Source: Flavisolibacter nicotianae (GTDB taxonomy: Bacteria; Bacteroidota; Bacteroidia; Chitinophagales; Chitinophagaceae). Taken from it: a stretch of DNA of 64,000 bases. Below the pieces are notes generated by a model. The model worked only from the letters and a program-made list of their open reading frames with translations, ran no database searches and was not told the origin of the DNA. Of this stretch, positions 49,544 to 61,847 are shown one piece after another. Position 1 is the first letter of the stretch; every line of letters begins with the position of its first letter. The stretch spans positions 248,001 through 312,000 of the forward strand of contig NZ_RBCI01000001.1 of the NCBI RefSeq assembly GCF_003628535.1. The letters are read 5' to 3'. The position numbers and the translations under genes are program-made.

Positions 49544-50434
49544 TCAGTGCGTTACTTTAGGCTTTCGGAGAAGCCCGAAGAGTTTCAGAAAATTGTGCTT
49601 CAGAATAGCAAACCGGTAAACGGATCCATCCTGAACTTTCAGCGTATCAAAAATGTTTTTTAAACCAGGCCGCTCCCGTGTTAGGTGCAGAAACTGCTGG
49701 TAGACGATCTCCTGCTTGCCGCTCTTGTAGTACCGGTGGTCTCTGTACCTCTCAATAGTCTGAAGCATTCCCTGGATGTACGTTGGATTGCTCGCTTGTG
49801 ACATGTTGCTTGCATGTCGTCGATAGTATACCAAGAAATCATTTACAAAACCGATTTTGTATCGCTGACTCAACCGGATCCATAAATCCCAATCTTCAAT
49901 CAGCAAATCTTCGTTGAAACCACCCACTTCATGGGCCTTTGTTACATCCAGCAACACACCTGGTGCCACAAGAAAGTTCCCTTTGATCAGTTCATCGAAC
50001 ACATACCCTTCGTAGCGTCTTTCGCCTCTTTGCTCAACTAACTCTTGCGTATCATCATAAAATGTAAACGCCTCCGAATAAACAACGGCAATGGTATCAT
50101 CGGCTGCGATTTTCGAAACCTTGGCGGCGATGTTTGTTTCCGCCATCCAGTCATCTGCAGAGATGATGCAGGCATAGCGGCCCCGAGCCCGTTTCAACAG
50201 CCAGTTGAAATTGGCTGCGATACCACAGGGACTTTCCCTTTTAAAAGCCTGAAACGAAACATGTTGTTTTTCCAGAAACGCCTGCGCCACGTCAAACGTA
50301 TGATCGGAGGAATGATTATCAAGATATACAATCTCAAGATTGCTGAATGTTTGCTGACAGATCGATTGCAGGCATTGCACCACGTAAGGTGCATGATTCC
50401 AGGACAATACACAAACAGATATGACCGGGCTCAT
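49544..50434 (-). CDS. GT2-family glycosyltransferase
   Basis: A 296-residue GT-A enzyme. The start at 50434 (MSPVISVCVLSWNHAPYVVQ) overlaps the flippase stop by 4 bp, which settles the start against a longer frame. IVYLDNHSSDHTFDVAQAFL and ACIISADDWMAETNIAAKVS give the nucleotide-binding and DxD-type motifs, and GGFNEDLLIEDWDLWIRLSQ the ED catalytic region. It belongs to the same transcription unit as wzx upstream and legB downstream. Confidence 0.88.
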   Translation of the reverse strand: MSPVISVCVLSWNHAPYVVQCLQSICQQTFSNLEIVYLDNHSSDHTFDVAQAFLEKQHVSFQAFKRESPCGIAANFNWLLKRARGRYACIISADDWMAETNIAAKVSKIAADDTIAVVYSEAFTFYDDTQELVEQRGERRYEGYVFDELIKGNFLVAPGVLLDVTKAHEVGGFNEDLLIEDWDLWIRLSQRYKIGFVNDFLVYYRRHASNMSQASNPTYIQGMLQTIERYRDHRYYKSGKQEIVYQQFLHLTRERPGLKNIFDTLKVQDGSVYRFAILKHNFLKLFGLLRKPKVTH

Positions 50435-51672
50435 AGAATATACTTCCAGACAATTACGAGTTGTGCAATGAGATATAAAAATGAGTTCAAAGAAAAAGCG
50501 TAAACAGTCCCGACCAATCCAAAGTGATTGATGAAAACATAGCTCACCGCCGTGGAAACGACTGCAAAGCCGATTTCTGTAAGGATGAAAGCTTTTTTCA
50601 TGGCTTTGGCAATGACCAGATAAGCCAATATCCATGAAGCAATCTTAATAACGTCGCCAAAGAGTTGCCACTTCATTAGCGAGAGCATTTCAATAAATTG
50701 ATGTGACAAAAGATATTTCACAATGAGATCACGCATCAGCCACACACTGATTGTTATAAGAAGAACGAGTGGCATGATGCGCAGGTATCCCAACAGCAAC
50801 TCCTTTTTGATGTCTGCCTTTTCTTTCAATTGCGACAGTTTGGGAAGATAATAGACGCCCATCACGGCATAGACAAAATTCAAATAATAATCACTCAAAC
50901 GGGTATTGGCCTGCCACAGCCCTGCTGCAAATGGATTTAAATTGTGCAGGAGCTTTGTACGGATAAACAGTTGAACAGTAGGAGCCAGAATGCCACTGAC
51001 AACAGTCATCAAAGAAAAACCGAGCAACAGGCGAATGATGGCGGGATCCGGCTTGCGAATTTGTGGCCAGGAAGGGGCAAGACCAGTTTTTTTAAGGATC
51101 GTATAAAAGAGATAGAACATGACAGCAGAAGAAGTGATGTTGGCCAGCAATACCCCTTTTATTCCCCAGAAATGTTTACCAAATAAAAGAAAAGCAATGT
51201 TTGCAACAGCCATCGTGATGTTCAAAATAGCCATTTGATGGATCTTGCCAAGTGCATTCAAGATCGAAGTCACAATATTGTTGAAAACAGAAAAAACCAG
51301 AAAGGATCCAAAAACGATAAAGACAATCGTGAATTCCGGCGTATCAAAAATAAGCTTTGAAAGAAAATAAGAGAACACGATGCACACAAGACTTACAACC
51401 AATGTACAGGAAAGCACTAGCGCCAAAGAACTGCTAATGATTACCCGCCGCTTCGCCTCTTCTTTGTATTCGGATACATATTTGACCACACCTGACCCGC
51501 AGGCAGCGGATGCCAGAAAGCTCAGCATCATCGTGGCATTCGTAAACTGTCCCACATAAGCCATCCCCTGCGGTCCAATAATGACAGCAACGTATTTCGT
51601 CGTAATCAGTCCGCACAACATGGTGACGCCAGTGGAAAGAGAAGCCCAAAAAGAGGTTTTTAAAAAATTCAT
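50431..51672 (-). CDS. wzx: Polysaccharide repeat-unit flippase (Wzx/MATE-like)
   Basis: A 413-residue inner membrane protein with about twelve hydrophobic helices, of the Wzx/RfbX oligosaccharide flippase type and closest in flavour to WzxE-like O-antigen translocases. It would flip undecaprenyl-linked repeat units to the periplasm. MNFLKTSFWASLSTGVTMLC at 51672 is the usual family start; a longer start at 51699 would overlap the aminotransferase by 11 bp. Polar or charged breaks occur at KYVSEYKEEAKRR, ANTRLSDYYLNF and SQLKEKADIKKE. Confidence 0.87.
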   Translation of the reverse strand: MNFLKTSFWASLSTGVTMLCGLITTKYVAVIIGPQGMAYVGQFTNATMMLSFLASAACGSGVVKYVSEYKEEAKRRVIISSSLALVLSCTLVVSLVCIVFSYFLSKLIFDTPEFTIVFIVFGSFLVFSVFNNIVTSILNALGKIHQMAILNITMAVANIAFLLFGKHFWGIKGVLLANITSSAVMFYLFYTILKKTGLAPSWPQIRKPDPAIIRLLLGFSLMTVVSGILAPTVQLFIRTKLLHNLNPFAAGLWQANTRLSDYYLNFVYAVMGVYYLPKLSQLKEKADIKKELLLGYLRIMPLVLLITISVWLMRDLIVKYLLSHQFIEMLSLMKWQLFGDVIKIASWILAYLVIAKAMKKAFILTEIGFAVVSTAVSYVFINHFGLVGTVYAFSLNSFLYLIAQLVIVWKYIL

Positions 51673-51688
51673 TCCAATAACCCTGTCC

Positions 51689-52795
51689 TTACCGGCCAAA
51701 AAATGATTTAATTTCCTGTGCGACTAAGCCAACATCCTGCTGCGTCATTCCAATCCACAAAGGCAGGCTTAGGCAGGTATTGGCAATTTCTTCAGCAATC
51801 GGGAAGTCTCCCTTTTGAAAGTCCAAGGATTGGTAGGCTTTCTGTAGGTGCGGCGGGATCGGATAATGAATCAATGTTCCGATCCCGGCATTTGAAAGAT
51901 GCTGCTGCAGCGCGTCTCGCGCTGCAGTTCGGATGACATATAGATGGTAAACATGCGTGGCGCCAGGAGCAACGTACGGCAGTACCACTTCCTGTATGTC
52001 CTTTAATTCATTGTTGTACCAGACTGCTATCTGCTGACGCATCTCGGTCCATTCAGGAAGGTATTTGAGCTTAACACTCAGAAATCCGGCCTGGCACTCG
52101 TCGAGCCGCATATTGAAGCCAATGGTTTCATTGAAATATTTTTTTTGTGAGCCGTAGTTCCGCAGCACTACCGCTTTCTGCGCCAGCAGTTCATCATTGG
52201 TTGTAACCGCTCCGGCATCACCCAAGGCTCCCAAGTTTTTTCCGGGATAGAAGCTTGTGCCGTTTATATGGCCCCAGCTGCCGGCCGGCTTCCCATTGAA
52301 AGCAGCGCCCTGCGCCTGGGCGTTATCTTCGACAACATACAGGTTGTACGTTTCGGCAATGGCCATAATGGCTTTCATATTGCAGCACTGCCCGTACAGG
52401 TGGACCGGCATTATTGCTTTGGTTCGGGACGTGATAGCCGCTTCAATATTGGCCGGATCAATATTAAAGGTCTGCAAGTTGGGCTCGGCAAAAACTGGTG
52501 TCGCACCCACGTAGGATACTGCCAACGCTGTGGCGATATATGTATTAGAGGGGACAATCACTTCGTCGCCTTCGCCGATCTTCAATGCCCTAAGTGCAAT
52601 ATGCAGTGCGTCGAGGCCATTACTGACACCCACAGTGTGTGCAACCTTGTTGAACGCGCTGTACTCCTCTTCAAATTGCTTTAACCGGTTGCCTAAAATA
52701 TACCAACCTTCATCAAAAAATGTCTCGAACGATTTCAGAATTTCTTCCCGGATCAAACGGTTACCGTGTGCAAACGACAAAAAGGGTACTCTCAT
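51689..52795 (-). CDS. DegT/DnrJ-family sugar aminotransferase (FdtB/QdtB-like)
   Basis: A 368-residue PLP enzyme that aminates a 3-keto-6-deoxy nucleotide sugar. The N-terminal [31 protein letters not shown] and [14 protein letters not shown], the central [11 protein letters not shown] and the PLP lysine region [15 protein letters not shown], and [13 protein letters not shown] are family motifs. With RmlA, RmlB, a ketoisomerase and the N-acetyltransferase in the same locus it completes a dTDP-Fuc3NAc/Qui3NAc type pathway. It is the intact aminotransferase; a decayed homologue lies at 54748-55068. Confidence 0.88.
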
Positions 52796-52801
52796 TTTTG
52801 A

Positions 52802-53134
52802 CTAACTTGTTATTGTATACGCTATACTTCTCTCCACCGGCGTCAATGAACTCGTGATTTCCCGCCGCCTGCAATTTATCCCTTTTTTCGTTGAGTCATC
52901 CGACAGCGCTGGCCGGGTTTCCAATTCCGAGGCTTGCGAAAGTACTTTTTTGGTAACGACAGTTCCAGCACCCACAATCGCAAAAGCGCCGACTTCCACC
53001 CCGCCTGGCACAACATATTTCCAGAAAGTTCGGGCCAAAGAGAAGGATAGCTGGGTTTCATTTTCAAAAAATGAAAGGTTTCCTCTTTCGTCCAAAATTC
53101 CAGGTAGTTGTATACGTCTGACCTGATCAAGCAT
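52802..53134 (-). pseudogene. Relic: ketoisomerase 5' part fused to acetyltransferase 3' part
   Basis: The frame starts like a FdtA-type cupin (IQLPGILDERGNLSFFENET, then TFWKYVVPGG), close to the intact ketoisomerase at 56045, but at the conserved PGG it switches to the end of a left-handed-helix acetyltransferase (VEVGAFAIVGAGTVVTKK). This indicates an internal deletion joining two adjacent genes. Beyond it the acetyltransferase continues in another frame as FASLGIGNPASAVG, a stop TGA (52896-52898) where Trp is expected, then LNEKRDKLQ and [14 protein letters not shown] one-base deletion near 52941 explains the frame change. The product cannot be active in either role. Confidence 0.8.
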
Positions 53135-53152
53135 CTAAAGAAATCTTTTGGA

Positions 53153-54007
53153 TCAAAGTCGAATCCATTCTTTGGGGATAAAGTCATTCATCTCTCTTTC
53201 CTGCTCTGCAATCCATACTTTTGGTGCTACCACCGTTTTTTCCGGATTTTGATTTAGCCATGCACCCCACCAACTAAAACCACTGTTGGCAATGATGTTG
53301 TGCCGGCAGTTTTTCATGAGTTCCATATCCCAGTAATTGTTTTCATCACGGTTAAAGTTGACAACCTCATAGTTGAATGGGAACCGGATATTGTCAATTA
53401 CCCACTCAGGTTCATCAGAAAAAATATACAGATAAGGGTCGGCCAGTTGGCTACAAATTTTATCAATGGCGGCTTCATAATAGTCTTTTGTGAGCATCCC
53501 GTGGAATGAAGTGAGTGCATAATCACCCCGTCTGAAATGGACGCTTACCGCATTTGTCGCCCTGATTTTGTGAAGACAGCTGCTGTTTTTTTGATTTGGC
53601 TGTTCATTTGGTGTAAATTCTCTTAAGAGACAATCTCTGACTTCCTCAAAATATTTGTAGCTGTTAAAATAACCATCCAGCACACTGTTGTTCTTCGTTT
53701 CAATGATTGACGGATCAAACCGCGAAAAATCTTTTTCTTTCACCACAACCAGAGAGAATGGATTCAGGCTTTTGAGCCGGTGCATCGTTCTTATCTTCCA
53801 GTACAAACGAGAATAATCAACTTCTTTGTATTGGACGTTCAACTTGTCCAACTTAAACGTTCTGGGAAAAGTAGAATTTTGATTTTCTGACTTATACCAA
53901 CTTAGATCAAGATATAATTCTGTTTGGTTTTTCAAGCTAAGGTTTCGGCCAAGGGCATATTGTAGCATTTGTCCGGCAAGACCTCCGTATAGTTTCGAGA
54001 CAATCAT
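53153..54007 (-). CDS. GT11-family alpha-1,2-fucosyltransferase-like enzyme
   Basis: A 284-residue GT11 glycosyltransferase. The N-terminal MIVSKLYGGLAGQMLQYALG, the donor-binding VSVHFRRGDY (HxRRGDY, around residue 155-165), YLYIFSDEPEWV and NIIANSGFSWWGAWLNQNPE are diagnostic. It would transfer fucose from GDP-fucose, although no GDP-fucose synthesis genes lie in the window. The gene is AT-rich compared with its surroundings (for example 17 G+C in the 60 bases 53881-53940) and overlaps fkbM by 4 bp. It sits between the two relics of the 3-amino-sugar cassette. Confidence 0.9.
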   Translation of the reverse strand: MIVSKLYGGLAGQMLQYALGRNLSLKNQTELYLDLSWYKSENQNSTFPRTFKLDKLNVQYKEVDYSRLYWKIRTMHRLKSLNPFSLVVVKEKDFSRFDPSIIETKNNSVLDGYFNSYKYFEEVRDCLLREFTPNEQPNQKNSSCLHKIRATNAVSVHFRRGDYALTSFHGMLTKDYYEAAIDKICSQLADPYLYIFSDEPEWVIDNIRFPFNYEVVNFNRDENNYWDMELMKNCRHNIIANSGFSWWGAWLNQNPEKTVVAPKVWIAEQEREMNDFIPKEWIRL

Positions 54008-54738
54008 TTGGCGGGGTACAGGGATTTCAGGTACTGTTGATCAATAAAGATGGTGTTGTTGAATGTATCTGCGTAAACGATATAATCGCAGCTCTTAAGA
54101 TAATCTATGGCCTCGTATTCTTTTTTGCCCGGCGGCACCGGATCGAATTCAGCGGTCTCTACACAGATAACATTGGGTCTGTATTGAGACAGGTCCATGG
54201 ATTTCAAAATTTCAAAGTCCAAGCCTTCCACATCAATCGAGAGGAAATCCGGCACAAAGTAATCCCGGAATAACTGATGAATATGAACGACTGGTATCTT
54301 CTTGACCTCTTTTATTCTATAGGTTCCTTCCGCATCCAGCCGTTCAGCCTCTTGCTTCGAAAACGTGTTCAGGGTTCGCACAGACATAATGTAGAAATCA
54401 AGCTTCTCGGCAACGTTGTCGTTTTGAGAAAAGCAAACGCCTACATTCAGGTTGCGGTCTTCAGGTCTTGTGATGGTTAATTCACTGTGCAAGATTGGAT
54501 CCGGTTCAATGGAAACGCCGCGCATGCCTGCTTTGTAAAAAAGATACGTATTGCTCAAATAAGTTGGATGGTGAGCACCAATGTCAAAATACGTGAAGGT
54601 TGGTTTTTGAAGAATATTTTTAAAGATAAAGTAAGTAATGACATCTTCTCCGGTTTGCGCATAGGACTCAACATAAGGTCTTCCACCTTTTGCCAAAGCA
54701 TAAATCTTCCGGTACACACGTTTCAGGTTATTCATCAT
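54004..54738 (-). CDS. FkbM-family methyltransferase
   Basis: A 244-residue SAM-dependent methyltransferase. YAQTGEDVITYFIFKNIL, FTYFDIGAHHPTYLSNTYLF (SAM-binding GxH region), SIEPDPILHSEL and FLSIDVEGLDFEILKSMDLS match the FkbM fold. It likely O-methylates a sugar hydroxyl in the repeat unit. The start is ATG 54738 or 54735. The stop overlaps the GT11 start by 4 bp, so both form a unit that shares low GC content and is flanked by gene relics. Confidence 0.85.
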   Translation of the reverse strand: MMNNLKRVYRKIYALAKGGRPYVESYAQTGEDVITYFIFKNILQKPTFTYFDIGAHHPTYLSNTYLFYKAGMRGVSIEPDPILHSELTITRPEDRNLNVGVCFSQNDNVAEKLDFYIMSVRTLNTFSKQEAERLDAEGTYRIKEVKKIPVVHIHQLFRDYFVPDFLSIDVEGLDFEILKSMDLSQYRPNVICVETAEFDPVPPGKKEYEAIDYLKSCDYIVYADTFNNTIFIDQQYLKSLYPAK

Positions 54739-54747
54739 CGAAACAAA

Positions 54748-55068
54748 TTAGAGTTCGGTTACAAACATACGATTTTGACGATAGCTCATGCTTTCATTGA
54801 CACTTCTGATAGGAAGAAATATTGCTTTTCAAAAATCCCTTGCAGACAATCTCTATGCATCGAATACTGGGTGGGCAATGACACAGCAGCGTACCAAAGC
54901 CATTGCTCACTCCAACACAAGGTTCCACCTGACAGAAGGCAGCAAAAGCGCTTTCAAATCCTTACACATGCTGGCCAAGGATATACCGTTTGCTTTCCAA
55001 AATATCCTGAAATGCCTGGTTGATTCGGGTTGAATTTGTTGTTTTGTCGGCGTAAAAGATAAAAGGCA
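54748..55068 (-). pseudogene. Relic of a DegT-family sugar aminotransferase
   Basis: The gap between the acetyltransferase and fkbM holds a fossil. On the minus strand from about 55068 one frame reads LPFIFYADKTTNSTRINQAF, DILESKRYILGQHV, stop TAA (54962-54964), GFESAFAAFCQVE and PCVGVSNGFGTLL, matching the N-terminus of the intact aminotransferase ([33 protein letters not shown]). In another frame IFLPIRSVNESMSYRQNRMF VTEL then TAA (54748-54750) resembles the family's C-terminal end. About 280 central codons are missing, so a large deletion plus point decay is inferred. The C-terminal match is weaker than the N-terminal one. Confidence 0.7.
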
Positions 55069-55072
55069 ATAT

Positions 55073-55624
55073 TCATATTTTTTTCAATACATAATTTTTA
55101 AGCTGATAATGGCACCCGTCTTCTCCTTGCCAATGTTCTTCACCAATTTGCTTAAGCTTCCGGCCTCGTTCATCAACCCATCCTTTAATACGTCCGGGAT
55201 TACCATATACTAATGCATAGGCCGGTATGTCGCGAGTGATCACAGTGGCAATTCCTGTCATTGCATAAGCACCAACTGTGACGCCTGCTAAGATGGTAGA
55301 GTTAGCCCCGATAGAGGCACCTTTTTGAATGGTGGTTATAGGATAGTTAATTCGTTGTTTGCTTCGGGGACGCAGGTCATTTGTGAACACAACATTCGGA
55401 CCGATGAATACGTCATCCTCGATTCGTGTGGCATCCCAGATAAATGTCCCGCTCTTTATAGTTACATTTTCGCCTATAATAACGTCGTTTTCGATAAAGG
55501 TATGAGAGTTGATATTGCAGTTCCGTCCAATGATCGCTCCTTTTAATACGACTGCAAACTGCCAGATGGTTGTCCCTTCTCCGACTTGGCAAGACTGTAC
55601 ATCAGCTAATGGGTGAATTTTCAT
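55073..55624 (-). CDS. Sugar N-acetyltransferase, left-handed beta-helix (FdtC/QdtC/WbpD-like)
   Basis: A 183-residue hexapeptide-repeat acetyltransferase. Repeats of the [LIV]-G-x4 type run from residue 10 to 140 ([60 protein letters not shown]), followed by [19 protein letters not shown]. With two ketoisomerase genes directly upstream (4-bp overlap) and RmlA/RmlB beyond, it most likely acetylates dTDP-3-amino-3,6-dideoxyhexose. It is the intact counterpart of the acetyltransferase part of the relic at 52802-53134. Confidence 0.85.
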
Positions 55625-56043
55625 GAGCCGTGAATAAATTGTTTAAACTGTTCGTAATCTCGTATGTAGTCGCTTGCAGAATAGGGTTCAGATGCAAGAA
55701 CCAAACAAATCGACCCCGACGAAAAATTGACCTCGCTGGCCCAGATCATGGGCGGTATATGCAGCCCGATATAGGGGCGGTTGAGCTGGATGAGCCGTTG
55801 GGTGCGGCCGTCGTCGAGCAGCACTTCAAAGCTGCCGCTGGCAGCAATTAAAAACTGGTGACATTCCTTGTGTGCATGGGCACCACGGCTTTCGCCCCCG
55901 GGCACATCGTATAAATAAAAGATACGACTGACATTAAACGGCAGTTCCTGGGAGTTGTGTACAGGTGTGATATTGCCCGCCCTGTTTTTAATCTTGGGCA
56001 GCGTCACAATGCTGCAGTCAAATACAGATGGATTGGGCCGCAT
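55621..56043 (-). CDS. dTDP-sugar 3,4-ketoisomerase-like cupin (HxH type)
   Basis: A 140-residue FdtA/QdtA-type cupin. The start at 56043 gives [20 protein letters not shown]; the longer frame overlaps the upstream gene and lacks support. Cupin motifs: [20 protein letters not shown] (catalytic HxH around residue 55-57), [24 protein letters not shown] and the C-terminal YIRDYEQF. It converts dTDP-4-keto-6-deoxyglucose to the 3-keto isomer. It is coupled to the acetyltransferase by a 4-bp overlap and follows a second, divergent ketoisomerase paralogue after one base. Confidence 0.87.
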
Positions 56044-56044
56044 A

Positions 56045-56446
56045 TCAGTGAAGTTGTTTGAACTGCTCAAAGTCTCGTATGTAGTCCGTTTCATTGTAGG
56101 GTTGATCGGCTACGATCAGGGCCAGCGAATTGGTGGAAAAACTCTCCATGTGACGCCAGATCATTTTGGGCACATACAAGCCGAAATACGAGCGGTTCAG
56201 CGTAAACCGCTTTTCTTCTTTTCCGTCATTCAGTATGACGTCAAAACTACCGGAAAGTGCCACGATGAATTCCTGCAGGCTATGGTAAGCATGTCCGCCC
56301 CTTGCCTCTCCGCCCGGCACGTCATAAATCCAATAGGTTCGCCGGATCGGAAACGGGATTTGATTGTTGCTTTCGAAAAACGAAAGGTTACCCCGTTCAT
56401 CCAGGATCTTCGGAAGCTGAATTAATTTGACATGTTCGAGAGTCAT
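56045..56446 (-). CDS. dTDP-sugar 3,4-ketoisomerase-like cupin (HAYH type)
   Basis: A 133-residue paralogue of the next gene, starting MTLEHVKLIQLPKILDERGN at 56446. YWIYDVPGGEARGGHAYHSL shows the cupin centre, but where the canonical pair reads HxH this copy has His-Ala-Tyr-His. LSGSFDVILNDGKEEKRFTL, FGLYVPKMIWRHM and DYIRDFEQFKQ complete the fold. Two unlike tandem ketoisomerases suggest either two 3-keto products or a hetero-oligomer. The relic at 52802-53134 derives from this subtype. It follows rmlA after 80 bp. Confidence 0.82.
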   Translation of the reverse strand: MTLEHVKLIQLPKILDERGNLSFFESNNQIPFPIRRTYWIYDVPGGEARGGHAYHSLQEFIVALSGSFDVILNDGKEEKRFTLNRSYFGLYVPKMIWRHMESFSTNSLALIVADQPYNETDYIRDFEQFKQLH

Positions 56447-56526
56447 GGGCCGGATCGTTGGAGGTCTTGCCAAACGCTGTTGCGTATTTCTCTCCAGCAT
56501 TGCTACCGGAAAAAAACGCTGGCTGT

Positions 56527-57396
56527 TTACCGTGTTTTTTTAATTACTTCTTCGAGGTATTTTCCATAGCCGCTTTTCATGAGGATGGCGGCTTGTTCGC
56601 GCAGTTGGTCTTCCGTAATAAAGCCCATGCGGTAGGCCACTTCTTCGATGCAGCCGATCTTGGTGCCTTGGCGTTTTTCAATCACCCGCACAAATTCGGA
56701 GGCATCGCTTAGGCTGTCAAAGGTGCCCGTGTCGAGCCAGGCCGTGCCGCGGTCCAGGATGGCCACATGCAGCGCACCGCGCCGGAGGTATTCCCGGTTC
56801 ACGTCCGTGATCTCGTACTCACCCCGCGCCGAGGGCTGCAGGTTTTTAGCAATCGACACCACGTCGTTGTCGTAAAAATAAAGGCCCGGTACGGCGTAGT
56901 TGGACTTGGGTGCGGCGGGCTTTTCTTCAATGGAAAGCACTTTTTGCTCGCCGTCGAACTCGACCACGCCGTAGCGCTCCGGGTCGGAGACTTCGTAGGC
57001 AAACACGTAGCCGCCCCCGATGTTGTTGAGCGACTGCAGCTGGCGGCCCAGCCGGGAGCCGTAAAAGATGTTGTCGCCCAGCACCAGCGCCACCTTGTCC
57101 CTACCGATGAAGCTCTCCCCGATCACAAAAGCCTGTGCCAGCCCGTTGGGCACTTCCTGGATGGCATACTCAAAACGGCAGCCCACCTGCGAGCCGTCGC
57201 CCAGCAGGCGCCGGAAAGAGGCGTTGTCCTCGGGGGTGGTGATGATCAGGATTTCCTTGATGCCTGCCATCATCAGCACCGACAGGGGATAATAGATCAT
57301 CGGCTTGTCGTAGATGGGCATGAGCTGCTTGGAAATCGCCTTGGTAATTGGATAAAGCCGGGTACCGCTGCCACCCGCTAAAATGATTCCTTTCAT
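56527..57396 (-). CDS. rmlA: Glucose-1-phosphate thymidylyltransferase
   Basis: A 289-residue nucleotidyltransferase making dTDP-glucose. The start at 57396 gives [84 protein letters not shown] and [11 protein letters not shown] are classical RmlA motifs. It overlaps rmlB by 4 bp. Without RmlC and RmlD in the window the dTDP-4-keto-6-deoxyglucose formed by RmlAB probably goes to the 3-acetamido sugar branch rather than to rhamnose. Confidence 0.96.
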
Positions 57397-58463
57397 GATG
57401 CGTGCGCCGTGGTGTATTGGGTTTGGTAATATTGCTGGTACTCGCCGGACGTTACATGCTTCAGCCATTCTTCGTTTTCGAGGTACCAGTCGATGGTCTG
57501 GCTCAGGCCCTCTTCAAAAGTTACACTTGGTTTCCAGCCCAGCTCGCGGTTGATCTTGCCGGCATCGATCGCATAGCGGCGGTCGTGGCCGGGCCGGTCT
57601 TTTACATAGGTGATGAGCGCTTCGCTCTCGCCTTCCCGGCGATTCAGCTTCTGGTCCATCAGGCGGCAGAGCAGCTTGACCAGTTCAATATTTTTCCACT
57701 CGTTGAAACCGCCAATATTGTAGGTTTCACCGTTTTTCCCCTGGTGATACACCAGGTCGATGGCGGCCGCATGGTCTTTGACAAAAAGCCAGTCCCGTGT
57801 GTACAAACCGTCGCCATACACCGGCAGGGGCTTTTTGTTGATGATGTTGTTGATGAAAAGCGGGATGAGTTTTTCGGGGAAATGATACGGTCCGTAGTTG
57901 TTGGAGCAGTTGGTAACCACCGCCGGCAGCCCGTAGGTGTCGTGGTAAGCCCGCACAAAATGGTCCGATGCGGCCTTCGACGCCGAGTAGGGCGAATGGG
58001 GATCGTACGGCGTTTTCTCGGTAAAGAGTCCCTCATCGCCAAGGGCGCCGTAAACTTCGTCGGTGGAGACGTGGTAAAAAAGTTTGCCCCCGAAGTTGCC
58101 GCTCCAATGTGTTTTGGCAGCATTGAGCAAATTCACCGTTCCCACCACATTGGTATAGACAAAATCCAGCGGGGAGAGAATGGAGCGGTCGACGTGCGAC
58201 TCGGCTGCCAGGTGAATGACCCCGTCGGGAGCATACTGCACAAACAGGCGTTCGAGTGCTCCCGCATCCAGCAGGTTTACTTTTTCAAAACAGTAGTTCG
58301 GTGCGTTTTCAATGTCCCGCAGGTTTTCCAGGTTCCCTGCATAGGTGAGTGCATCGAGGTTGACGATTCGGTAATGCGGATATTTGTTCACAAACAGCCG
58401 CACCACGTGCGAACCGATAAACCCAGCCCCGCCCGTTATAACAATGGTCTTTGACTCATTCAT
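57393..58463 (-). CDS. rmlB: dTDP-glucose 4,6-dehydratase
   Basis: A 356-residue extended SDR. The start at 58463 gives [63 protein letters not shown] (catalytic Thr-Asp-Glu), [15 protein letters not shown] (YxxxK), [16 protein letters not shown] and [13 protein letters not shown] are all RmlB signatures. It is followed with 4-bp overlap by rmlA and preceded by the WbpP-like epimerase; its GC content is high compared with the AT-rich genes downstream. Confidence 0.96.
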
Positions 58464-58479: not shown

Positions 58480-59445
58480 TTATGAATATGAAAAATGGTG
58501 TTGCTTCCGGTACCAGTCAAACGTGGGCTTCAGTCCTTCGCGGATGGTGAAACCGGGCTTGTAGCCAAGCAGGTTGCCGGCCTTGGTGATGTCGGCCAGG
58601 CTGTGTTTGACATCGCCTTTGCGTTCCGGGCCGTATTGGGGTGCCAGGTCGCTGCCGGCGACATTTTTAATCATCTCAAACAGCTCGTTCAAGCTGGTTT
58701 GCTCGCCGCAGGCGATATTGTAAACCTGGTTCACAGCGTCCTTGTTTTGCGTGAACAGGGCCAGTTCGTTGGCTTGTACCGCGTTGGCCACGTAGGTGAA
58801 ATCGCGGCTGTGTTCACCGGAGCCGTTGATCAAAGGCGGTTCGTTGCTCAAGACGGCTTTGACGAAAAGCGGCACAACGGCAGCATACGGCCCTTGCGGA
58901 TTTTGCCGTGGGCCAAAAATATTAAAGTACCGCAACCCGATTAGCTCCATACCGTACAGGCTTGCATACACTTTTGCATACAACTCGTTTACCAGCTTCG
59001 TCACTGCGTAAGGCGAAAGCGGGTTGCCGATCCGGTCTTCCTGCTTGGGAAGGCCCGGATGATCGCCATAGGTAGAAGAGGAAGCTGCATACACAACCCG
59101 TTTGATCCCGGCTTCTTTGGCTGCAGTGAAGACATTGAGCGTACCGGTGATATTGACGTCGTTGGAAGTCAGCGGATCGTTGATGGAACGGGGCACGGAG
59201 CCCAGGGCCGCCTGGTGCGAGATCAGGTCAATATCGGTGCAGGCCTGCTGGCAGGTCTCGTAACTGCGGATATCGCCTTCAAGAAATTCGAACTTGGGAT
59301 CACCCTGGAAGCTTTCGATGTTTTTCAGCGAACCGGTTGCGAGGTTATCCAGCACCCGCACCTTCGTAACCTGTGGATTTTGCAACAGGTGTTCCACTAG
59401 ATTGGAGCCAATAAACCCGGCTCCCCCGGTAATCAAAATGCGCAT
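58480..59445 (-). CDS. WbpP/Gne-like UDP-N-acetylglucosamine 4-epimerase
   Basis: A 321-residue extended SDR. The start at 59445 gives [20 protein letters not shown] and shares one base with the wzc stop (TAATG), which fixes it. [56 protein letters not shown] and [13 protein letters not shown] (YxxxK) match WbpP, which interconverts UDP-GlcNAc/GlcNAcA and UDP-GalNAc/GalNAcA. The [11 protein letters not shown] segment separates it from GalE and RmlB. It would provide the N-acetylhexosamine that commonly starts the repeat unit. Confidence 0.88.
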
Positions 59446-61847
59446 TATACTTTTTTGCTTTTGCGTTTCGTGGTTGTTCCATTTTTTGAACCCAGCCAGC
59501 CAAACCATTTGCTCAAACCTGTTGGCTCCGTTTCATCGTCTTCAAAATAGCCGGCACCGTAGCCATACCCATAGCCATAACCATACCCATAACCATATCC
59601 ATAACCTCCTTTCGTCTTCACGTCGTTAAGCACAATAGAAATTTTGGGCAGCTTACCCTGGCTATTGTATTCCTCCACAAGGTGGATCTGTTTTTTGAAA
59701 GTGCGCCCCTGGCGTACAATGTAAAGTGTGCAATCGGCGTATTTGCTCAGTGTCATGGCATCGCTTACCATGCCAACAGGGGCCGTGTCCATAACAACCA
59801 CATCAAACGCCTGGCGAAGATAGACAAACAATTCGTCCAGCTTGGCGTCGAGCAGCAACTCCGAAGGGTTGGGCGGGATGGGGCCGCAGGGCAACACAAA
59901 CAGGTTTTCGTAGCCTGGCACCCGTACCGGCAACTCATCCAGTGTTGCCTGTCCCAAAATGTAGTTGGTCAATCCTGCGTGCTTGGGCAAATCCAGGCCC
60001 AACATCACTTTGGGTTTGCGAATGTCGAATTCAAGAATGATCGTTTTTTTGTTGGTCAGCGCCAGGACGGCGCCCATGTTGGTGCTGACGAATGATTTTC
60101 CCTCGCCGCTAAACGAAGACGTAACCATGACCACCGGTTTTGGGGTGTGCGGCAAAATGTATTGCAGGTTGGAGCGCAGGATGCGGAACTGTTCAGCAAT
60201 AAACTTTCGGTTATTGACCGTTACCACCAGGTTCTTATCACCGGAGGAGTGCCCCACTTCGCCAAGAATCGTGGCGTCAGTAAGCTTTTCAATATCGCTA
60301 CGGGAGGTTATCTTGTCGTTCAGCAATTCCATCACTACAATAATAATGGTTGGGATGACGAGACCAATGAGCACCGCCAGGATCTTTGTACTACGCCGGT
60401 TGGGTTTCACAGGTACAAGGTTGGGTGTGGCTTCCAGCAGCACTTTGGTATTGGAAATAGTGGAGGCCAAGGCAATTGCGGATTCTTCGCGTTTGGCCAG
60501 TAGAGTATTGTAGATCCCGGCCTTGCTTTCCAGTTGTTGCTGGATGTTGACTAGTTCCTGCTTCTTATTCGGCAATGTTCTGATTTGTGAGACGGCCTCG
60601 CCACTCGCTGAGCGTACAGTGCCGATGGCCGAACTGTAAGCGGACCGGATATTTTTTATATTCTCGATAATCTTGCCGCGCAAGACTTCCACTTCCTCTG
60701 CCTTCTGCTGCACCATGACGTTGCCCGAAGGTGCATTGTTGAGCAGTTCCTTGCGTTCCATCTGTGCGTTGTTATACCCCAGCACCAGTACGTTCAGCGT
60801 TGGGTCTGAGAGACCAAGGGAAGATGGCACAATGCTTTGGGCTGTTTCTTCATTGCGGAGATAATCCAATAATTGATTCGCTGTATTCAGCAGCATGCGT
60901 TGTTGTTGCTCTGATTTTAGCGCATCTTCCACCCGTGCCAAATAATTGGATGTCTGTGCTCCAGGATCCACAATATTGTTTGCCCGCTGAAAGGCCACGA
61001 AGATCTGCTTAATGCTGTCGAGTTCCCGTTCCCGCTCTTTCAGGGTCGCATCGATGAAAACAAGCGACTTACGGTTTGTTTCATTTTTGTCTTCGATCGT
61101 AATTTCTTTGTAGTCTTCCACCAGGCGGTTGATCACCTCAGCCGCTAAATAAGGGCTGCTGCTTTCCATGGAAATGGTCAAAATTCCTGTGCTTTGCTTG
61201 GGAGCAACGGCCAGCCCACCCAACAACAAACCCGCCTGCACGGTCGTCGGATTCCAGGTTATCCGGCACTCAGTACTGATGGCATCCTGGCTGATCCGGT
61301 TGATCCGGAATTCTCCAAACTGGTTTTTAAAAACCTGCCCAAAAGCATAACGCTCCTTTGAGCCATTGACGGTGAACGATTGCTGCGTGGGAAGAAAAAG
61401 ATCCAGTGTAAAACTTTGCGATGAGTCAGCAATTTTCAGGGCCTCGATCCTGAATGGCGCTACCTTGTAAATATTCGTTTCGCGGAAGCGGCCTTTTGAT
61501 GAATAGTTGAAATTGAGGTTCAGTGCTTCCACGACCCGGTTCATCACCGGGCGGGATTGCAGCACTTCCAGTTCGGTCTGCACGTTTTTGCGGGAATCCG
61601 TCTGCATCAGCACATCCAGTTTGTCGCCGCTCCCGCTACCCGCCGTTTTTTCGTCCCTGATCATAATCTGTCCCGTCGACCGGTAGACTTCTGTTGTATA
61701 CCGCAGGTAGATGTATGCGCCAATCAGCGAAAGGGCAACAAAGATGATATAGAGCGGCAGAAACCGCACATAGGTAAAAAAAAGTTCCTTTAGATTTCGT
61801 CCCGATAGATTGCCTTTTTGCTTCTGCAGAAGTACTTGCTCCTCCAT
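59445..61847 (-). CDS. wzc: Wzc-like polysaccharide co-polymerase and tyrosine autokinase
   Basis: An 800-residue BY-kinase. The N-terminal Wzz domain follows a membrane helix at 29-48; a long coiled-coil periplasmic part (about 260-470) ends at a second helix (488-507). The cytoplasmic kinase has Walker A TSSFSGEGKS (576-585), Walker A' ILEFDIRKPKV (605-613) and Walker B VVVMDTAP (683-690). The C-terminal tyrosine cluster is a Gly-Tyr dipeptide repeated eight times (748-763) plus a ninth Tyr at 767. Autophosphorylation of such clusters controls chain length and export through Wza. It overlaps the WbpP-like gene by one base. Confidence 0.95.
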   Translation of the reverse strand: MEEQVLLQKQKGNLSGRNLKELFFTYVRFLPLYIIFVALSLIGAYIYLRYTTEVYRSTGQIMIRDEKTAGSGSGDKLDVLMQTDSRKNVQTELEVLQSRPVMNRVVEALNLNFNYSSKGRFRETNIYKVAPFRIEALKIADSSQSFTLDLFLPTQQSFTVNGSKERYAFGQVFKNQFGEFRINRISQDAISTECRITWNPTTVQAGLLLGGLAVAPKQSTGILTISMESSSPYLAAEVINRLVEDYKEITIEDKNETNRKSLVFIDATLKERERELDSIKQIFVAFQRANNIVDPGAQTSNYLARVEDALKSEQQQRMLLNTANQLLDYLRNEETAQSIVPSSLGLSDPTLNVLVLGYNNAQMERKELLNNAPSGNVMVQQKAEEVEVLRGKIIENIKNIRSAYSSAIGTVRSASGEAVSQIRTLPNKKQELVNIQQQLESKAGIYNTLLAKREESAIALASTISNTKVLLEATPNLVPVKPNRRSTKILAVLIGLVIPTIIIVVMELLNDKITSRSDIEKLTDATILGEVGHSSGDKNLVVTVNNRKFIAEQFRILRSNLQYILPHTPKPVVMVTSSFSGEGKSFVSTNMGAVLALTNKKTIILEFDIRKPKVMLGLDLPKHAGLTNYILGQATLDELPVRVPGYENLFVLPCGPIPPNPSELLLDAKLDELFVYLRQAFDVVVMDTAPVGMVSDAMTLSKYADCTLYIVRQGRTFKKQIHLVEEYNSQGKLPKISIVLNDVKTKGGYGYGYGYGYGYGYGYGAGYFEDDETEPTGLSKWFGWLGSKNGTTTKRKSKKV
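59547..59606 (-). repeat. Hexanucleotide repeat encoding the (Gly-Tyr)8 tail of Wzc
   Basis: About nine units of a 6-bp motif (on the plus strand CCATAN with N varying: CCATAC, CCATAG, CCATAA, CCATAT) encode alternating Gly and Tyr at residues 748-767. The third bases vary, so the repeat is not perfect at DNA level, yet units could still expand or contract in frame, changing the number of phosphorylatable tyrosines. Confidence 0.85.

Follow-up and report, generated by a model that had tools for sequence, protein, structure and literature searches.

The locus analysed here raises the question of how a single gene cluster came to hold one intact set of genes for a 3-amino sugar together with pieces of a second set. 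It lies in a 64,000-nucleotide stretch, hereafter the window, of the 6.09-Mb genome of Flavisolibacter nicotianae (70 contigs). The initial annotation had proposed that two cassettes of the same order (ketoisomerase, acetyltransferase, aminotransferase) once existed here, either by tandem duplication or by the joining of two clusters, and that each had lost what the other retained.

Organization of the cluster and its two relics

The genes follow one another on the minus strand in the order rmlB, rmlA, fdtA1, fdtA2, fdtC, relic A, fkbM, family 11 glycosyltransferase, relic B, fdtB and wzx. The first two open reading frames, putative rml genes by their sequences, are an rmlB-like dTDP-glucose 4,6-dehydratase gene (57393–58463, probable start), an upstream neighbour with labelled homologues in relatives, and an rmlA-like glucose-1-phosphate thymidylyltransferase gene (56527–57396, probable start), whose DNA is 66–81% identical in 14 of the 17 other genomes of the genus. 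Next come two intact ketoisomerase paralogues, the upstream fdtA1 (56045–56500; Pfam PF05523, 173.4 bits) and the downstream fdtA2 (55621–56043; PF05523, 175.8 bits), the latter with its probable start at 56043, right behind the fdtA1 stop. The ketoisomerases previously placed at 55621–56446 are intact as described, and are delimited here as two genes; a PF05523 profile search of this genome gave no match outside the locus. The following genes are fdtC (55073–55624), an intact hexapeptide acetyltransferase gene recognised by a Pfam profile and a structure match, an fkbM-family methyltransferase gene (54004–54738; PF05050, TIGR01444) and a fucosyltransferase-like gene of glycosyltransferase family 11 (53153–54007; PF01531, 82.8 bits). 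Further downstream lie fdtB (51689–52795), an intact PLP sugar aminotransferase gene (PF01041, 393.8 bits), and a wzx-like flippase gene (50431–51672, probable start; NCBIfam NF011679, 200.3 bits, under the cut-off of 325), a similar form of which stands beside fdtB in some relatives. At the gathering score, no Rfam family was found within the window.

With ketoisomerase, acetyltransferase and PLP aminotransferase genes beside rmlA and rmlB, the intact genes are predicted to form an Fdt/Qdt cassette for a 3-amino-3,6-dideoxyhexose. The closest solved relative of FdtB by sequence is QdtB (3frk, E 9.7e-123); sequence by itself does not identify the 3-amino sugar product of the intact enzyme. A like order, rmlB-rmlA-fdtA-fdtC-fdtB ahead of wzx, is given for the Escherichia coli O103 H515b and Salmonella Pomona O28 O-antigen clusters (PMC2905691); unlike these, the cluster in the window has a pair of ketoisomerase genes and, in addition, the remains of another cassette.

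Relic A (54899–55076, minus strand) is the decayed start of an fdtB gene, of which only codons 1–60 are recognisable. It shares 34% identity with intact FdtB over 62 amino acids (E 6e-8), matches Pfam PF01041 with 29.6 bits (cut-off 19.8) and reaches a frameshift-aware alignment score of 181.5, compared with a mean of 31.9 (sd 4.6, maximum 41.5) for 25 shuffles. Three frameshifts and one stop fall within these 178 bases. Its start at 55076 lies inside an ATGA shared with the fdtC stop, and fdtC and fdtB likewise overlap by 4 bp in genome G246 (locus L161). The 160-bp tail that separates it from fkbM (54739–54898, minus strand) has no FdtB match above shuffles, nor any convincing DNA or translated match in the relatives' loci compared. 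The decayed aminotransferase formerly assigned to 54748–55068 is thus confirmed for the first part only.

Relic B (52797–53134, minus strand), directly upstream of intact fdtB, is the 5' end of an fdtA1 gene fused to the 3' end of an fdtC gene. Its 5' part (53000–53134) corresponds to codons 1–45 of a gene of the fdtA1 type, as supported by tblastn with intact FdtA1 (59% over 51 amino acids, E 3e-19 when nothing but the two relics was searched), by Pfam PF05523 (33.0 bits, cut-off 23; 30.1 bits in the profile scan of the own genome) and by phylogenetic placement, and fdtA2 is 40% identical over 45 residues. Its 3' part (52797–53002), with one frameshift and one stop, matches FdtC at 46% over 24 amino acids and, after a frame change, at 30% over 46 amino acids including the stop (joint E 1e-5). 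The junction is a Gly-Gly common to FdtA1 and FdtC, across which the frame continues into the FdtC end; the Gly-Gly codons on both sides possibly provided a short homology at the deletion. This second cassette is without any of fdtA2, the greater part of fdtA1 and some 60% of fdtC. Relic B shares its two domains with the WxcM-like bifunctional acetyltransferase-ketoisomerase (4mzu), but in that protein the acetyltransferase part is N-terminal, whereas the order in relic B is reversed and most of both domains is gone. Compared with full-length relatives, both segments are disrupted by truncation, frameshift or stop, as expected of pseudogene relics, and translated alignment to the FdtA, FdtB and FdtC families revealed significant similarity, which bears out the earlier reading of a decayed aminotransferase and a decayed ketoisomerase/acetyltransferase.

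Origin of the two cassettes

Within the outer frame rmlB-rmlA ... wzx, relic A stands where fdtB is expected and relic B where fdtA1...fdtC is expected. We consider it probable that two related but distinct cassettes were joined in one cluster and that one deletion in each, with point decay, left a single set. A surface-polysaccharide cluster would have received two related dTDP-3-acetamido-3,6-dideoxyhexose cassettes of order fdtA1-fdtA2-fdtC-fdtB, both perhaps once complete in this genome and working side by side. In the upstream copy, fdtB would have been deleted beyond codon 60, where nothing recognisable is left; in the downstream copy, a single deletion of about 1.0 kb (by arithmetic from the intact genes) would have joined the start of fdtA1 to the end of fdtC, and point decay would have followed. 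The pathway, if running, would then use fdtA1, fdtA2 and fdtC from one copy and fdtB from the other, and may in this sense have been rebuilt from complementary halves, as first suggested. Such a pattern would usually arise where genes are lost independently while selection maintains a single functional set, a selection that we presume here: with four genes, one copy of each kept and independent losses, 14 of 16 outcomes are mosaic by simple reasoning, and complementary decay is therefore expected rather than remarkable.

The identities of the relics support two cassettes of one order, each without what the other retains, and this order is common in relatives. Among 20 family and genus loci, eight have exactly fdtA1-fdtA2-fdtC-fdtB, nine have fdtA1-fdtA2, other genes at the fdtC position and then fdtB, and three have a single ketoisomerase only. 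The genes of such cassettes are loosely coupled, so that parts seem to be swapped often: a comparison of 14 complete tandem cassettes showed coupling of the two ketoisomerases (rho 0.26, p 0.04), while the other five gene pairs gave p values of 0.17 to 0.98. The intact genes of the window also differ in their nearest relatives. fdtA1 is closest to the same-genus genome G006 (78%), fdtA2 to G006 (81%) and G182 (84%), and fdtC to G246 (65%) and G006, whereas fdtB is closest to G281 (75%) and only 64% identical to G006, its nearest cassette being in a different genome from that of fdtA1 and fdtA2.

Tandem duplication of one cassette in this lineage, followed by divergence and complementary loss, is the strongest alternative, although we regard it as unlikely. 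Order and neighbourhood are alike in both copies, and the FdtA1 piece of relic B, placed within the 34-row FdtA1 set, groups with intact FdtA1, G006 and G182; by identity (62%), intact FdtA1 ranks second of 121 for this piece. Such closeness would be equally expected from duplication in one lineage, and is a counterpoint to joining. In the same columns, however, intact FdtA1 shares 76–80% with four other genomes, compared with 62% with the relic, a value lowered by decay. Also against duplication, the two copies of FdtC belong to different classes: the relic B piece scored 133.2 when compared with the 11-row clade of the intact gene, but 196.2 when compared with a class of 24 further FdtC rows. 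Leave-one-out assignment was right for 11/11 and 24/24 rows, in classes that were drawn after the tree was seen, with 13 distant rows excluded and with the 24 rows not forming a single clade. An AU test against intact FdtC and the relic as one clade gave p 0.037, with a single model, about 69 columns of relic sequence and a bootstrap that had not settled. The copies of FdtC are therefore not nearest relatives, as recent tandem copies would be, and those of FdtA1 come near to it. Relic A is not placed: a tree constrained to make it the sister of intact FdtB is not rejected (p 0.97), the unconstrained search having scored worse than this tree, and when ordered by identity to the relic, intact FdtB comes 59th of 121, a weak measure over 60 decayed columns. 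The first residues of relic A had led us to expect membership of a second FdtB class, the one seen in G102; a two-profile test gave the opposite result, with 166.6 for the broad class of the intact gene and 134.3 for the second class (leave-one-out assignment was correct for 57/59 and 38/40 rows; 23 of the 122 rows, in neither class, were unused). Of the two origins first offered, the joining of two related cassettes is thus favoured by these phylogenetic data, through the FdtC classes and the AU test, over recent tandem duplication.

Somewhat less likely still is that the relics are the edges of a truncated incoming block, the partial cassettes having arrived broken through the recombination that introduced fkbM and the glycosyltransferase gene, so that two complete sets never coexisted. 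The G+C content of 0.40–0.43 from fdtC to the family 11 gene is below that of fdtA2 and fdtB, but wzx, outside the block, is equally low (0.42), and there is no clean border. An fkbM match at E 1e-40 was found in 27 of 374 family genomes (that of the window counted), and in four of the others (G102, G111, G294 and G311) the gene directly behind fkbM is of family 11. One cluster of G102, from the same family, combines an intact cassette, an acetyltransferase-like gene, wzx, a family 2 transferase gene, fkbM and the family 11 gene, though the last two are only 37–39% like the pair of the window. Clusters of this type and the recurrent fkbM-family 11 neighbours fit mobile gene blocks, and the joining of cassettes is the origin that we favour. 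Against a block that arrived broken, relic B keeps both ends of fdtA1...fdtC in the right order beside fdtB, and that DNA must therefore once have carried a whole cassette somewhere.

To look for comparable relics, 90 loci of at least 8 kb (89 and the window slice; 94 before crude duplicate removal) were scanned with diverse FdtA, FdtB and FdtC queries at E 1e-4, yielding 261 full-length matches and 6 fragments. Four fragments lie inside long stop-free frames (210–407 codons), and the other two are relic A and the FdtA1 piece of relic B; no comparable relic was thus detected in the 89 other loci, by a scan that missed the FdtC piece of relic B and may therefore have missed weaker relics elsewhere. 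A conserved regulatory or coding role of the two segments, with 52802–53134 for instance encoding a real 110-amino-acid protein, is hardly credible: relic B does hold an open frame of 110 codons there, but this frame departs from FdtC homology at the frame change, the FdtA part ends ahead of His49 and His51, under half of each protein remains, and no similar segment was detected in the 89 other loci.

Down to single bases, the relics illustrate a route by which polysaccharide clusters may swap parts of a biosynthetic cassette, a second set coming in, each set suffering a deletion and a mosaic remaining; such intermediates seem rare among the loci scanned. By themselves, the relics are one more case of mosaic surface-sugar clusters, a kind already known, and no article on such relics was found in the open-licence literature judged by title or abstract start.

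The asymmetric ketoisomerase pair

According to PMC2943079, the known ketoisomerase active site comprises His49, His51 and His95, of which His49 and His51 are called strictly conserved, position 95 is His in inverting and Arg in retaining enzymes, and strands two and three are swapped in the dimer. Although it matches the FdtA family profile, fdtA1 keeps only His49 of the two, residue 51 being Tyr and residue 95 Arg, and fdtA2 has both His49 and His51 but Ala at 95; neither paralogue alone carries catalytic residues at 49, 51 and 95 together. As a marker of Fdt (Fuc3NAc) versus Qdt (Qui3NAc), position 95 gives an Arg without His51 in fdtA1 and an Ala in fdtA2. FdtA of Aneurinibacillus thermoaerophilus (2pa7) is matched by fdtA1 without gaps (E 3.8e-31) and by fdtA2 at E 8.4e-31; the Tyr of fdtA1 and the Ala of fdtA2 are differences from both this enzyme and QdtA (4o9e).

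Campylobacter jejuni has two ketoisomerases, WlaRA and WlaRB, in one organism. The best structure match of fdtA2 is 5tpu (E 7.6e-32), identified as WlaRB in PMC9095892, and 5tpv is WlaRA of this bacterium by its structure-match name.

The asymmetry extends well beyond the window. In the first loci, His51 is absent upstream and present downstream in 27/27 tandem pairs, and 50 further pairs, identified by their spacing among the matches of family and phylum surveys (ketoisomerase matches in at least 102 of 394 family genomes and at least 136 of 395 phylum genomes, among the matches listed), have the same pattern when taken with the window (51/51). Over distinct tandem pairs, His51 occurs in 0/77 upstream copies (Tyr in 52, Phe in 23, Lys and Leu in one each), while Asp13, Arg15, His49, Glu56, Arg95 and Asn103 are each present in 77/77. 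Downstream copies have His51 in 77/77 and, at position 95, Ala in 40, Arg in 34 and other residues in three; since Arg95 is this frequent downstream, the split triad of the window is not general. Unpaired copies, of which at least two (L030 and L049) probably come from pairs truncated where the compared stretch stops, have His51 in 74/77 (two Asn, one Leu) and never Tyr or Phe (0/77). The upstream gene is therefore tightly constrained and is seen only beside the downstream gene. Complementation of fdtA2 by Arg15 of fdtA1 was considered and rejected: this residue, present upstream in 77/77 and absent downstream in 75/77, is also absent in 42/77 unpaired copies and is therefore no general catalytic residue.

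The simplest reading of these alignments is a heteromeric ketoisomerase formed by fdtA1 and fdtA2. We tentatively propose, with somewhat less than even confidence, that these Bacteroidota cassettes encode an obligate asymmetric pair, in which fdtA2 would give the catalytic histidines and fdtA1 would be a strictly conserved partner minus His51, the heterodimer having one live, possibly composite, active site. If so, complementary loss would have occurred at two levels, within an enzyme and between cassettes, and the pair may outweigh the relics in importance. What we rate as new is that, of two genes recognised by a single family model, one is without a residue called strictly conserved; the top-ranked matches in the open-licence literature, judged by title or abstract start, included no article on such a pair, and we make no claim of a first report. 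In genome G398, both ketoisomerase domains lie in one open frame of 347 codons.

Tandem ketoisomerase paralogues

The tandem ketoisomerase paralogues form an asymmetric pair: in all 77 distinct pairs, among them the one in the window and pairs at L163–L212, the catalytic residue His51 is absent from the upstream copy (fdtA1, 56045–56500 in the window) and present in the downstream copy (fdtA2, 55621–56043). A natural fusion of the two paralogues was found in a single case (L183).

Asparagine occupies position 51 in two distinct unpaired ketoisomerases (L039 and L160), and the same residue is found at this position of the alignment in the structure entry 2pak.

Neighbouring genes and segments

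The slot between fdtA2 and the aminotransferase gene fdtB is occupied by genes other than the acetyltransferase gene fdtC in 9 of the 20 family and genus loci (L143–L162), as if the acyl-group step of the cassette were exchangeable.

The 160 bp (54739–54898) separating the fdtB remnant (relic A) from the methyltransferase gene fkbM gave no convincing match to FdtB, nor to DNA or translated sequence of the loci compared. Elsewhere, the wzc-like ORF (59445–61847) carries a run of Gly-Tyr repeats close to its end.
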